From Balneolaceae bacterium (GTDB taxonomy: Bacteria > Bacteroidota > Rhodothermia > Balneolales > Balneolaceae): a stretch of DNA of 42,283 nucleotides. Below the pieces are notes generated by a model, which did not search any database, was not told the origin of the DNA, and saw only the letters and a list, made by a program, of their open reading frames with translations. Positions 17,101-21,356 of the stretch are shown here, one piece after another (the first letter of the stretch is position 1; the number at the start of each line of letters is the position of its first letter). The stretch covers positions 1 through 42,283 of the forward strand of contig PWWL01000226.1 of assembly GCA_003561515.1 (NCBI GenBank). Reading direction: 5' to 3'. Both the position numbers and the translations under genes were made by a program.

Positions 17101-18063
17101 CTACTGTCCCTTTCTCAGTGCGGCAAGCTGCTTTATGAGTTCTTTCTCTTTCATGGTGAGATTCTTCGGAATGTCGATCTCGGTGCGGATGAAGTAGTTG
17201 CCCCGGCTGTTCTTATTGTTCACCTCTGGCAGTCCGCGTTTTGGAAGCCTGAACATCTTACCCGACGGGGTTTCCGGAGGCAGGTTCAGCTTCACCTTAC
17301 CATCGAGGGTTTGCACGGTAATCTCTCCGCCAAGCAGCGCCTTATAAAGCGGAACGGGTACCGTCTGGTACACATCCTTACCTTTCAGATCATATCCTTC
17401 GGGTACTTCAACGTCAATTTTCAGGTAGAGATCTCCTTTCGGGATGCCTGTCGGGGTGCGTCCCCTGCCCTTCAGCTTTAGCCTCTTTCCGTCTTCCATT
17501 CCGGCTGGAATCTTCACCTTCACCTTGTCGCCGTTGATGCGCAGGTATTTCTCCACACCGTTGAACAGGTCGGCAAGATCAACTCTGAGGCGCGCTTCCG
17601 AATCGGGCGCTTTGCGCGGTGCCGTCGAACGGCTGCGGGTTCGCTGGCCACCGTTGCCATATTGGCCTCCGCCAAAAATGGTCTCAAAAAAACTGGAAAA
17701 TGGGCTGCCACTTCCACCTGGCTGACCGCTGTCACCAAAAATATCGTCGAAGTTAATGTTAACACGCTGCCCCCCGCCCTGGGAGCCGGCATATTGCGAC
17801 CAGTTAAAATCATCGGGATTGGCACCGGCCTGCTGATACCGTTTCCAATCACTGCCTACCTTGTCATACAGTTTTCGCTTTTTAGGATCCTTGAGTACTT
17901 CGTAGGCTTCTCCGACCTCCTTGAATTTGGCTTCAGCCCTCTTGTTTCCCGGATTTTTATCGGGATGAAATTTAGCCGCCATTTTCCGGTACTTCTTCTT
18001 GATCTCTTCCTGGGAAGCGTCTCGGGAAACACCTAATATGTTGTAATAGTCTTTGTATTCCAT
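17101..18063 (-). CDS. DnaJ/CbpA-type Hsp40 co-chaperone without zinc finger
   Basis: A 320-residue class-B J protein. The J domain occupies residues 1-70 with the HPD motif at 33-35 ([10 protein letters not shown]). A Gly/Ser-rich linker with DIFGDSG and [10 protein letters not shown] follows (about 90-145). Two C-terminal substrate-binding domains span about 155-310 ([51 protein letters not shown]). The four CxxCxGxG zinc repeats of true DnaJ are absent, so it resembles CbpA or DnaJ2. It stimulates DnaK ATPase in the cytoplasm. It is the last gene of the minus-strand heat-shock block, after the RNA-like array. GAGG lies 9 bases before the ATG at 18063. Confidence 0.93.
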
Positions 18064-18181
18064 TGTGATACCTCTTCAACGAATATAAGGAGCAAATGCA
18101 ATGCCATTCGCTTAATTTTTGCGAAATTGACATACATGGGCCACTATGCAGCTGATTTGATGCCTTCCGGTGCAACAGGGT

Positions 18182-18348
18182 AAAAAAAAGCCCGCAGGTT
18201 TTCACACCCACGGGCTAAGTCTCTTTCTAATCAATATGTGTTTTCTCAGTTCTAAATCTTTGAGCGTTGGGATGTACGCTCACGTGTGTCTCTCTGGGTA
18301 TAAGCTATGGTAAATGCAGATCCCGTTCACCGCATAACCATGTGGTTC
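18182..18348 (-). ncRNA. Structured RNA unit 1 (divergent member of the array)
   Basis: On the minus strand this starts near ACCACATGGTTATGCGGT (about 18346-18329), which folds as a 7-bp stem with one A-C mismatch and a 4-base loop. It ends in a terminator: GCCCG...CGGGC stem (18214-18190) plus eight T (18189-18182). Between them it shares AGAACTGAGAA.ACACA..ATTGAT.AGA with units 2-5 but otherwise differs, so it is an older copy. It has no equivalent of the 27-codon ORF (MVMR then TGA). It lies 119 bases upstream of the DnaJ start, so the RNA ends before that gene. Function unknown. Confidence 0.6.
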
Positions 18349-18391
18349 TTGCTGTATGTGCAAAAAGCTTCTTCACTGATCAGGTTCATAT

Positions 18392-18589
18392 CTATTGAGT
18401 GAAGTTCATATCCCCAAAAAAATTATACATATGAATGATCGAAACTCCGGCTCTTGCAAACACACCTTTTGCCAAAGACATCTCCATAGCATTATCACCC
18501 GCTTTTGCCCGGAAAGCACTCAGCTGAAATAATGAGAGCTTTCTCGGAGAAACCTTTACCCTGACCGAATTTCGAATTACGAAGACCAT
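18392..18589 (-). CDS. Doubtful 65-codon ORF between RNA units 1 and 2
   Basis: The 245-base spacer between units 1 and 2 contains this single open frame. The predicted product starts MVFVIRNSVRVKVSPRK and ends in a hydrophobic, aromatic stretch (FARAGVSIIHMYNFFGDM). I recognise no family. It has a start in a reasonable position about 20 bases after the T-run of unit 2. It may be a real small protein inserted within the array, or chance; the spacer could equally be a decayed RNA unit, although no terminator hairpin is left in it. Confidence 0.25.
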   Translation of the reverse strand: MVFVIRNSVRVKVSPRKLSLFQLSAFRAKAGDNAMEMSLAKGVFARAGVSIIHMYNFFGDMNFTQ

Positions 18590-18602
18590 TCCAGGTTACG
18601 GC

Positions 18603-18771
18603 AAAAAAAAGCCCGCCGGCTTTCAGGCCGGCGGGCAATCTCTCTATCTGTTAAACCAATCTGTGTGTGCTCTCAGTTCTCAATCAATCTTTATCACATG
18701 GGAGTGTGTTGTGTTCTTACACCAACTTACCACATCCCGGCCCTGAAAACACCGCATGCTCATGTGGTTTT
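18603..18771 (-). ncRNA. Structured RNA unit 2
   Basis: Minus-strand unit starting near 18771 (AAAACCACATGAGCATGCGG) and ending in a perfect terminator: GCCCGCCGGC, loop CTGAAA, GCCGGCGGGC, then eight T down to 18603. The 5' part holds TTTTCAGG, complementary to CCTGAAA of the terminator loop. An ORF of 27 codons (MSMRCFQGRDVV...KID, TGA) starts at the first ATG; position 15 is Cys here, Tyr in units 4 and 5. The unit differs from unit 3 at only a handful of positions and is offset from it by exactly 188 bases. Confidence 0.75.
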
Positions 18772-18791
18772 AAAAACTGATTCTAGGGCAT

Positions 18792-18960
18792 AAAAAAAGC
18801 CCGTCGGTTTTCAGGCCGGCGGGCAATCTCTCTATCTGTCAAACCAATCTGTGTATGCTCTCAGTTCTCAATCAATCTTTATCACATGGGAGTGTGTTGT
18901 GTTCTTGTACCAACTTACCACATCCTAGCCCTGAAAGCACCGCATGCTCATGTGGTTTTA
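18792..18960 (-). ncRNA. Structured RNA unit 3
   Basis: Near-identical to units 2 and 4. The terminator stem reads GCCCGCCGG against CCGACGGGC, so one pair becomes a mismatch or wobble. The 5' CTTTCAGG is complementary to the loop CCTGAAA. The small ORF is cut short by TAG after eight codons (MSMRCFQG), which argues that coding is not the conserved property. About 20 bases (ATGCCCTAGAATCAGTTTTT) separate the T-run of unit 4 from the 5' end of this unit, leaving little room for a separate promoter. Confidence 0.75.
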
Positions 18961-18979
18961 AAAACTGATTCTAGGGCAT

Positions 18980-19147
18980 AAAAAAAGCCCGCCGGTTTTC
19001 AGGCCGGCGGGCAATCTCTCTATCTGTCAAACCAATCTGTGTATTCTCTCAGTTCTCAATCAATCTTTACCACATGGGAGTGTGTGTTGTTCTTGTACCA
19101 ACTTACCACATCCCGACCCTGAAAGCACCGCATGCTCATGTGGTTCT
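18980..19147 (-). ncRNA. Structured RNA unit 4
   Basis: Unit on the minus strand from about 19147 with the ACCACAT-GAGC-ATGCGGT 5' hairpin, CTTTCAGG, two ATGTGGT words, the AGAACTGAGA core and a terminator GCCCGCCGG...CCGGCGGGC plus T-run. Both ATGTGGT words can pair with the 5' ACCACAT, so alternative folds are possible. It encodes an intact 27-codon ORF, differing from that of unit 5 at two residues. Offset from unit 3 is 188 bases and from unit 5 is 187 bases. Confidence 0.75.
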
Positions 19148-19166
19148 AAAACTGATTCCAGGACAT

Positions 19167-19331
19167 AAAAAAAGCCCCCGGATTTTCACGTCCGGAGGCT
19201 AATGTCTCTATCTTATCAATCTGTGTGTGTTCTCAGTTCTCAATCAATCTTTACCACATGGGAGTGTGTGTTGTTCTTGTACCAACTTATCACATCCTGG
19301 CCCTGAAAGCACCGCATGCTCATGTGGTTTC
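19167..19331 (-). ncRNA. Structured RNA unit 5 (closest to dnaK)
   Basis: First unit after the dnaK terminator on the minus strand. The 5' hairpin and core match units 2-4, but the terminator has been rebuilt: AGCCTCCGGA pairs with TCCGGGGGCT around loop CGTGAAAA, then seven T. The C-G pair next to the loop in unit 2 is A-T here, a compensated change that supports a selected hairpin. It carries the 27-codon ORF with Gln and Ile where unit 4 has Arg and Val. The upstream minus-strand sequence TTGAACTTCAGAAAATACCTG (19350-19335 region) could hold the array's promoter. Confidence 0.72.
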
Positions 19332-19360
19332 TGCAGGTATTTTCTGAAGTTCAAGAAAAG

Positions 19361-19397
19361 AAAAAAGGCCTCATCCGTTTATCGGAAGAGGCCTTTT
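19361..19397 (-). terminator. Rho-independent terminator of dnaK
   Basis: On the minus strand AAAAGGCCTC (19397-19388) pairs with GAGGCCTTTTTT (19372-19361) around a 15-base loop, 31 bases after the dnaK stop. It separates the chaperone operon from RNA unit 5. Confidence 0.88.
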
Positions 19398-19427
19398 ACC
19401 AAAGTTTAGTTAGCTTAGATACTGACG

Positions 19428-21356
19428 TTACTTCTTGTCGTCATCATCTTCATCTACAACTTCGAAGTCGGCATCTACAGCATCGTCACCGCCTTCCTGC
19501 GCCTCAGTATCTTCAGCACCGTCTTGCGCAGCACCTTCAGCGCCGGCGGCATCCGCAGCCTGGTAGATTTCTTGTGACGCAGCCGCCCAAACCTGATTCA
19601 GTTCATCGATAGCTGCTTCAATCTCATCCACATTTTCATTTTTGTGAAGTTCTTCGAGCTTACTCACAGCCTCTTCGATCTTGGTACGGTTACCCTCCGA
19701 AATCTTTTCTTTGTGCTCGTCGAGCTGCTTTCTGGTTGAGAAAATCAGGGAATCTGCTTTGTTAAGCACTTCTATTTTCTCCCGTACCTTCTTATCCTCT
19801 TCGGCATGCTCTTCAGCAGCCATTTTCATCTTGTTGATTTCTTCATCTGTAAGGCCCGAAGATGATTCAATCCGGATGCTTTGCTCTTTTCCGGTACCTT
19901 TATCCTTCGCGCTTACGTTGAGAACACCGTTCGCATCAATATCGAATGTAACCTCGATTTGAGGCACACCGCGAGGTGCCGGCGGAATTCCGTCAAGGTG
20001 AAAGCGTCCCAGCGTGCGGTTATCCTGAGCCTTGGCCCTTTCACCCTGCAGGATGTGGATTTCAACACTGGTTTGGCTGTCGGCGGCGGTCGAAAATGTT
20101 TCTTTCTTACTGGTTGGTATCGTGGTGTTCGATTCAATCAGCTTGGTCATTACGCCGCCAAGGGTTTCAATACCCAGTGTAAGGGGGGTAACGTCGAGCA
20201 GCACTACGTCGTCAACATCACCGGTCATAACACCGCCTTGTATGGCTGCGCCCACAGCTACCACTTCATCAGGGTTTACACCTTTGCTGGGATCTTTTCC
20301 AAAGAACTCTTTCACTACCTCCTGAATCTTCGGTATTCGTGTTGAACCACCTACCAGAATAACCTGATCAATTTCCGACTTACTGATCCCGGCGTCCTTG
20401 ATTGCTTTTTCGCACGGCTTAATGGTCCTCTTCACAAGATCATCCACCAGCTGTTCGAATTTGGCCCGGGTCAGATCAATGTTCAGGTGCTTCGGTCCCG
20501 AGTCAGTCGCTGTGATAAACGGAAGATTCACATTTGTTTTCTGAGAGCTCGACAGCTCAATCTTCGCTTTTTCGGCAGCATCCTTGAGGCGCTGCATCGC
20601 CATCGGGTCTTTTCTCAGATCAATTCCTTCATGTTTCTTGAACTCATCGGCGAGGAAGTTGATGATTCTTTGATCAAAATCGTCACCGCCAAGGTGAGTA
20701 TCACCGCTGGTTGATTTTACTTCGAATACGCCGTCGCCAAGATCGAGTACAGACACGTCGAACGTACCGCCACCGAGGTCGTAAACAATAATTGTTTGAT
20801 CGGTGTCTTTCTTGTCAAGGCCATACGCCAGTGATGCGGCAGTAGGCTCATTGATGATCCTTTTCACGTCAAGGCCGGCAATTTTCCCGGCTTCCTGAGT
20901 AGCTTTTCTCTGTGCATCGTTAAAGTAAGCCGGCACTGTAATCACTGCCTCAGTCACCTTTTCGCCCAGATACTCCTCAGCAGTCTGCTTCATTTTTTGA
21001 AGCACCATAGCTGAGATTTCCTGCGGTGCATACTTCCTGTCTTCAATCTGCACTCGGGCGGTGCCGTCGTCATCCGATTTCACAACCTTGTACGATACCT
21101 GCCCAATCTCTTCTTTCACTTCATTAAACATGCGTCCCATGAAGCGTTTTATTGAAGAAACCGTTTTCTCGGGGTTGGTAATAGCCTGCCTTTTCGCAGG
21201 AGCCCCAACAAGTCTTTCACCGTCTTTCGAGAAAGCAACCACGGAAGGAGTAGTGCGTCCGCCTTCTGAATTTTGAATTACAACCGGCTCATTGCCTTCC
21301 ATTACTGATACGCACGAGTTGGTTGTTCCTAAGTCGATTCCTATAATCTTACCCAT
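19428..21356 (-). CDS. dnaK: Hsp70 chaperone DnaK
   Basis: A 642-residue Hsp70, the usual length. The nucleotide-binding domain starts [11 protein letters not shown] and contains [48 protein letters not shown] and [11 protein letters not shown]. The substrate-binding domain starts at [11 protein letters not shown] and includes [12 protein letters not shown]. The helical lid ends in a Gly/Ala- and Asp/Glu-rich tail (...VDEDDDDKK). It uses ATP to bind and release unfolded proteins in the cytoplasm, with a J protein and GrpE. hsp20 is 39 bases upstream on the same strand, so the two are probably one heat-shock operon. GrpE is not in the window. Start ATG 21356. Confidence 0.98.

Follow-up and report, generated by a model that had tools for sequence, protein, structure and literature searches.

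The tandem units between dnaK and dnaJ

The window, i.e. the whole stretch of 42,283 nucleotides that was analysed, corresponds to contig C262 in the draft genome of a Balneolaceae bacterium (G000; 3.57 Mb, 408 contigs, 84% complete). The gap between its dnaK and dnaJ genes holds five units, all of them on the minus strand and each closed by a GC-rich hairpin and a T-run. The features of the region are listed in the direction of transcription; starts of the predicted RNAs are inferred.

19428..21356, minus strand: dnaK, a neighbour outside the system (Pfam, NCBIfam)
19363..19397, minus strand: inverted repeat followed by a T-run, before the array, likely the dnaK terminator (inverted repeat, sequence)
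19310..19327, minus strand: unit 5, operator dyad (pattern match)
19284..19289, minus strand: unit 5, -10-like TAAGTT, 20 nt past the dyad (pattern)
19166..19277, minus strand: unit 5, predicted small RNA of ~112 nt, terminator stem 19173-19200
19126..19143, minus strand: unit 4, operator dyad (pattern match)
19100..19105, minus strand: unit 4, -10-like TAAGTT (pattern)
18979..19093, minus strand: unit 4, predicted small RNA of ~115 nt, terminator stem 18987-19012
18938..18955, minus strand: unit 3, operator dyad (pattern match)
18912..18917, minus strand: unit 3, -10-like TAAGTT (pattern)
18791..18905, minus strand: unit 3, predicted small RNA of ~115 nt, terminator stem 18799-18824
18750..18767, minus strand: unit 2, operator dyad (pattern match)
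18724..18729, minus strand: unit 2, -10-like TAAGTT (pattern)
18604..18717, minus strand: unit 2, predicted small RNA of ~114 nt, terminator stem 18611-18636
18328..18345, minus strand: unit 1 (divergent), operator dyad (pattern match)
18302..18307, minus strand: unit 1, -10-like TAGCTT (pattern)
18183..18295, minus strand: unit 1, predicted small RNA of ~113 nt, terminator stem 18189-18216
18092..18132, minus strand: promoter-like block before dnaJ, conserved between the window and the close relative G003 (pairwise alignment)
17101..18063, minus strand: dnaJ-like gene, a neighbour outside the system (Pfam DnaJ and DnaJ_C)

Tandem Repeats Finder reports a single array (18600-19330) with 3.9 copies of a 188-nt period, 92% of matches and a score of 1185. 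A repeat search of the window gives spacings of 188, 188 and 184 nt for the four similar copies and reveals three blocks which they have in common with the divergent unit. Pairwise identity reaches 85-95% among units 2-5 and 64-67% between these and unit 1, and the core GAGAACTGAGA is exact in units 2-5 and has one mismatch in unit 1. Thus the tandem minus-strand array that an earlier note had described from the letters alone, with four near-identical units and a divergent one, a core common even to unit 1 and a hairpin with T-run at the end of each, is confirmed. Between units 2 and 1 there are about 250 nt without a unit (18350-18603), in which no function was seen.

Putative operator, predicted transcript and terminator

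The 5′ end of the units is formed by a palindrome, CYRCATNNNNATGYRGTG or a close form of it, which opens the units of G000 and G003 with two exceptions (C102 24394 and G003:C6 193138) where this dyad is missing. Across 40 genomes the dyad pattern gave 61 hits compared with 9 for the reversed control. Exactly 20 nt past the dyad a TAnnnT element is found in 43 of the 61 distinct contexts, four of which are the similar units of the window; it stands at 21 nt in 2 contexts and at any other offset between 0 and 44 in at most 4 of the 61. When dyad and -10 were searched together in 128 genomes of the order, 88 of which had not been used in finding the rule, 109 hits were obtained against 10 for the control, distributed over 56 genomes, and all five units of the window carry the combination. 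Dyad, 20 nt and -10 form the layout of a putative activator-dependent promoter; the geometry of such promoters and the placing of transcript starts are general knowledge. A sigma-70 scan of the window found no minus-strand promoter.

The same dyad with its -10 also precedes the regulator gene described below and other protein genes. Judged by the -10 at a fixed distance, the palindrome behaves as a DNA operator. An RNA hairpin at this place was not retained as the main reading: the palindrome precedes protein genes, one of its pairs is A-C in 14 of 45 operators and pairing is just slightly above independence (30 vs 23.1 and 26 vs 22.7). The operator of a dimer would be expected to give such a mild excess as well. 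Some further dyads were observed. Those at L124 4248 (G000:C232) and L125 5288 (G003:C3) lie 270-400 nt before short genes beginning with MGQQQLLLVILVTI, which look pilin-like by eye and have no Pfam or NCBIfam match; the -10 is present behind the first dyad and absent behind the second. At L173 4483 (G072:C11) the mRNA leader past the dyad promoter has AGAGATTGAGAACA just before the start codon, resembling the sRNA motif discussed below. Dyads of the form CAT....ATG occur upstream of regulator homologues in one Krumholzibacteriota and one Calditrichota record (L223 and L225) and are absent before the homologue of an Ignavibacteriae record; the operator could predate the order by far.

Counted from its palindrome, some 54 nt at the 5′ end of every unit most likely belong to the promoter rather than to the RNA, and the transcript would start ~6 nt past TAnnnT, near AGAGA or AGAAC. 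Since TAnnnT stands exactly 20 nt past the dyad, the RNAs of the window are probably 112-115 nt long; the species of ~165 nt expected in the earlier note are not supported, their 5′ part resembling operator and -10. A peptide in place of an RNA was rejected, the longest reading frames in 23 predicted RNAs having 0-24 codons.

Terminator-like sites, some of them overlapping, number 8 in 17900-19500 compared with 1.1 (sd 1.1) in shuffles. For 15 family terminators the share of pairing cells is 98.5%, and 8 of 9 pairs have changed on both sides; this level was reached by 0 of 500 shuffles, a count that is not a probability because the 15 terminators are related sequences, and pairing is destroyed if the partner is slid by 1-3 columns. 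The earlier statement that hairpin pairing is kept despite sequence change holds on this larger set. Three units of G003 (G003:C9 278343, 280432 and 330883, in L046 and L047) have near-identical bodies and three quite different terminator stems with pairing kept, i.e. terminators turn over fast between recent copies.

Distribution of the RNA family

Further units of G000 are located on contigs C102, C104 and C359. The ends of C104 and C102 overlap almost identically, so the total is put at about ten units, distributed over three loci (five in the window, four at C104/C102 and one at the beginning of C359). With these ten a covariance model was built, which matched 5 of 40 genomes, G000 included. 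The close relative G003 has nine rows of this model and one further unit, thus at least ten units; rows below ~30 bits were not counted with the exception of G003:C5 406894, which has dyad, -10 and terminator. At G003:C12 28076 (L251) GAAAACTGAGAACAC is followed by a hairpin, and this is probably another family unit. The units are, as far as sequence and predicted structure tell, a scattered small-RNA family of Balneolaceae bacteria, and the multicopy family postulated for the window is borne out by the copies elsewhere in G000 and in relatives.

No Rfam 15 family matched at gathering score, neither in the window nor in 15 related loci, in line with the view of the earlier note that no described family is involved; below threshold there were only chance-like rows for the window. 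The 6S RNA model (RF00013) matched none of 11 genomes. A literature search on small RNA of Balneolota returned nothing (subscription journals were outside its scope), one for the operator string gave no match, and on the wider topic Balneolaceae or Gracilimonas were absent among the matches listed, which does not prove absence.

The linked response regulator

The regulator linked to the dyad is of the NarL/FixJ type with a PF00072 receiver and a PF00196 LuxR-type helix-turn-helix (GerE), both over cut-off. In G000 its gene occupies C104 669-1310, upstream of the C104 units. The nearest solved structure is VraR (E 9e-31), which has the same combination of receiver and LuxR-type HTH and whose operator presumably differs from the dyad. 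The regulator stays below the equivalog cut-offs of the best 25 NCBIfam rows.

Within 300 nt upstream or 600 nt downstream of the regulator gene, dyad and -10 were found at 25 of 30 regulator loci of the family; 19 loci have them upstream (shuffle mean 0.05) and 16 downstream (0.16). One of the five misses is G003, where they lie just outside the stretch tested. Behind the downstream promoters a terminator is frequent (14 of 18), behind the upstream ones it is rare (3 of 22), and a gene starting with IASGQGFWGD.., as it occurs after the C102 units, lies within 600 nt downstream in 15 of the 30 loci. Because linkage, terminators and shared downstream gene recur across family loci, a regulator-linked sRNA gene looks old in the family. 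Among 92 family genomes 27 have both regulator (called at E up to 1e-55) and promoter, 10 the regulator only, 9 the promoter only and 46 neither, with a p value of 5e-8 that is too small because the genomes are related. This means that the strict promoter pattern is lacking in 10 of 37 regulator-bearing genomes and present in 9 of 55 regulator-less ones; within the genus it occurs in every one of the 8 regulator-bearing genomes and in 3 of the 20 others.

A sensor kinase gene adjoins the regulator in 19 of 22 loci, a count that excludes the distant regulator of L043 (29% identity). Three of these neighbouring kinases (960-993 aa) show the Pfam domains Reg_prop, Y_Y_Y and HATPase_c. No kinase was found beside the regulator within the stretches examined in G000 and G003; at L010 and L044 the regulator lacks the neighbouring sensor kinase of its relatives. 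In G000 a carboxyltransferase gene stands directly before the regulator, and in G001 that gene precedes the kinase.

Gracilimonas-type genera have a different RNA at the same site. In genera g13 and g30 the RNA at the regulator locus is another one with GTCCTTCC, which is partly found in g20 and loosely in g17. A shorter RNA with a conserved hairpin around GTCCTTCC was seen downstream of the regulator in L191, L193, L194, L196, L198, L199 and L205, and a related GTCCTTC upstream of the regulator gene in L200 and L201.

Repeated motifs in the predicted RNAs

Predicted RNAs beside the regulator were compared between eleven genomes in four genera and vary greatly in sequence. Trimmed at their terminators, they contain 27 copies of GAGAAC, GAGAGA or AGAGAC, a motif set chosen after inspection of the RNAs, compared with 7.5 expected, and none of 1000 dinucleotide shuffles reached 27; in the eight genomes outside the genus the ratio is 20 to 4.3. 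The motif is repeated at varying places, and therefore a protein decoy fits better than a single antisense seed. We tentatively suggest, with less than even confidence, that the RNAs titrate an RNA-binding protein via these repeats. Against titration, GAGA is barely more unpaired than the rest of the RNAs (0.64 vs 0.59; higher in 14 of 23), and the different RNA at the regulator locus of genera g13 and g30 speaks against the decoy as well.

As to candidate partners, Hfq was found in 0 of 40 genomes by a search in which controls were matched in 5 of 14, and CsrA in none of the genus's 25 genomes and in 2 of 15 others (controls matched in 3 of 14). RRM_1 proteins were found in none of the 25 genomes of the genus (G000-G024) and are present, usually in two copies, in all 15 others of the order, an apparent loss in the genus. 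Mimicry of ribosome sites was considered and dropped: 104 starts have no Shine-Dalgarno signal and only 7 GAGA lie near starts.

Alternative explanations

From their position in the heat-shock block the earlier note had inferred small RNAs that are possibly made under the conditions of hsp20-dnaK. For a role in the heat-shock response with co-expression of hsp20, dnaK and dnaJ, position is the one argument that we can name, and this view appears very improbable. In a search of 30 dnaJ loci (~1.5 kb flank each) with the family model, units were detected at the locus of the window only; in G003, G015 and G022, the three others with dnaK inside the stretch examined, the dnaK-dnaJ gap is 206, 219 and 214 nt long, and G003 has no unit in it despite its at least ten units. 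Other G000 units lie elsewhere and the unit promoters match that of the regulator. Heat-shock co-regulation is thus not supported, the position being shared by no other dnaJ locus examined. In these three genomes the locus itself is devoid of units, and the family as such has copies in relatives; the units seem to stand beside heat-shock genes only in this lineage. The orientation towards dnaJ and the closing terminators could also suit attenuators or leaders that control the next gene, here dnaJ, like the Brt RNAs at trp genes of Bartonella, which are present in several copies and are reported to attenuate the genes that follow them (PMC8070961). This is hardly credible for units that precede varied genes and are absent at the 29 other dnaJ loci; moreover unit 1 and dnaJ are separated by a promoter-like block, and five successive terminators are hard to explain as one switch.

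Copies that are both dispersed and tandem remind of a short repeat of mobile or selfish nature, in which palindrome and hairpin would serve as transposition ends and not as regulatory signals. Among the three near-identical G003:C9 units one has flanks that by eye seem unrelated outward from the dyad, which fits such a repeat. Against it, the dyad with the -10 at 20 nt is found before the regulator gene and other protein genes too, and the terminators change while pairing stays, so we consider it quite improbable; copying of whole units by some route is compatible with the regulator-driven sRNA genes as well. A more serious but still somewhat unlikely alternative accepts these genes and lets the RNAs base-pair with mRNAs, using the core or C-rich loops, so that the extra copies would only raise dosage or spread targets. 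It can refer to the long conserved core in G000 and G003, to CCC, which 13 of the 23 predicted RNAs contain (23 copies vs 11.5 expected), to the conserved GTCCTTC in RNAs of Gracilimonas-type genera and to FopS of Bacteroides, which acts by pairing (PMC11697453). However, the 11 regulator-linked RNAs show no CCC enrichment (7 vs 4.6), there is no Shine-Dalgarno enrichment at the 104 start regions and no convincing antisense target was found, though the RNAs may pair through short seeds. With up to two mismatches the reverse complement of the core occurs at 4 off-family places in G000 (control 5) and 9 in G003 (control 4), i.e. without excess in the former and with a small one in the latter, and pairing of the core at start codons was rejected as a candidate. 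The G000 places lie inside reading frames, two of the G003 places are intergenic with one resembling a further unit, and none overlaps the start of a long frame; a single place sits 30 nt into an 86-aa frame.

Proposed mechanism and comparison with known systems

A regulator-driven sRNA family is very probably what the units represent. The explanation as a whole, in which regulator-operated sRNA genes were amplified to an array and titration is the first choice for their action, we consider likely. Each unit would be a complete sRNA gene consisting of operator dyad, 20 nt, -10, an RNA of ~112-115 nt and an intrinsic terminator. The NarL/FixJ-type regulator probably binds the dyad (predicted site CYRCATNNNNATGYRG), most likely when phosphorylated, and would switch on the ~10 G000 units together, an older unit sitting beside its gene and the dnaK-dnaJ array providing tandem-amplified, lineage-specific copies for a higher RNA dosage. 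Given about ten units in G000 and none at dnaK-dnaJ in G003, the array is read as a lineage-specific amplification of putative regulator-linked sRNA genes, presumably for dosage. In our reading the amplification took place at a harmless site, and every copy has an operator and a terminator of its own. Acting in trans, the RNAs may then sequester an RNA-binding protein via their GAGA-type repeats. For Balneolaceae the outcome is an sRNA family to which a likely regulator, an operator rule (a dyad and, 20 nt further on, TAnnnT) and a home locus that is conserved can be assigned; with rule and home locus the putative regulon becomes readable from sequence and therefore testable, and genomes with one unit versus ten offer a natural dosage series.

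Three known systems invite comparison. Brt1-9 of Bartonella exist in several copies, carry stable hairpins at the 3′ end and are linked to genes of DNA-binding proteins (PMC8070961), features in common with the Balneolaceae units. Brt ends attenuate the gene behind them, whereas the Balneolaceae regulator gene, mostly located upstream of the RNA, has its own operator copy. FopS of Bacteroides comprises many paralogous sRNAs that pair with mRNAs and work with the RRM protein RbpB (PMC11697453). Both families comprise numerous paralogous sRNAs in a background that is Hfq-poor and Bacteroidota-like, but none of the 25 genomes of this genus gave an RRM_1 match and the cited portion does not describe such an operator for FopS.

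A parallel in design is Gac/Rsm, where GacS/GacA switches on RsmX, RsmY and RsmZ via a palindromic upstream activating sequence and repeated motifs in these RNAs sequester a protein (PMC2375449). In both cases several sRNAs are tied to a LuxR-type regulator via an upstream palindrome, here by sequence linkage only, and operator, regulator and RNA motif are all other in the Balneolaceae units. Membership in Gac/Rsm fails on two defining features, since only 4 of the 23 RNAs contain GGA outside the terminator, 1 of them at least twice, and CsrA was found in 2 of 40 genomes, none of the genus; the regulator scores 98.6 against the 280-bit NCBIfam equivalog cut-off of UvrY/SirA/GacA. A rather unlikely extension is a Csr-like global post-transcriptional switch made from new parts, in which a two-component system would drive at least ten GAGA-repeat decoys, these would sequester an RNA-binding protein in a genus without matches to Hfq, CsrA or RRM proteins, and lineages would tune the response by tandem amplification of decoy genes. 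If true, the decoy reading would mean Gac/Rsm-like control from other parts in bacteria where the usual RNA chaperones were not found. By analogy the predicted wiring of the Balneolaceae units resembles that of Gac/Rsm, with other parts.
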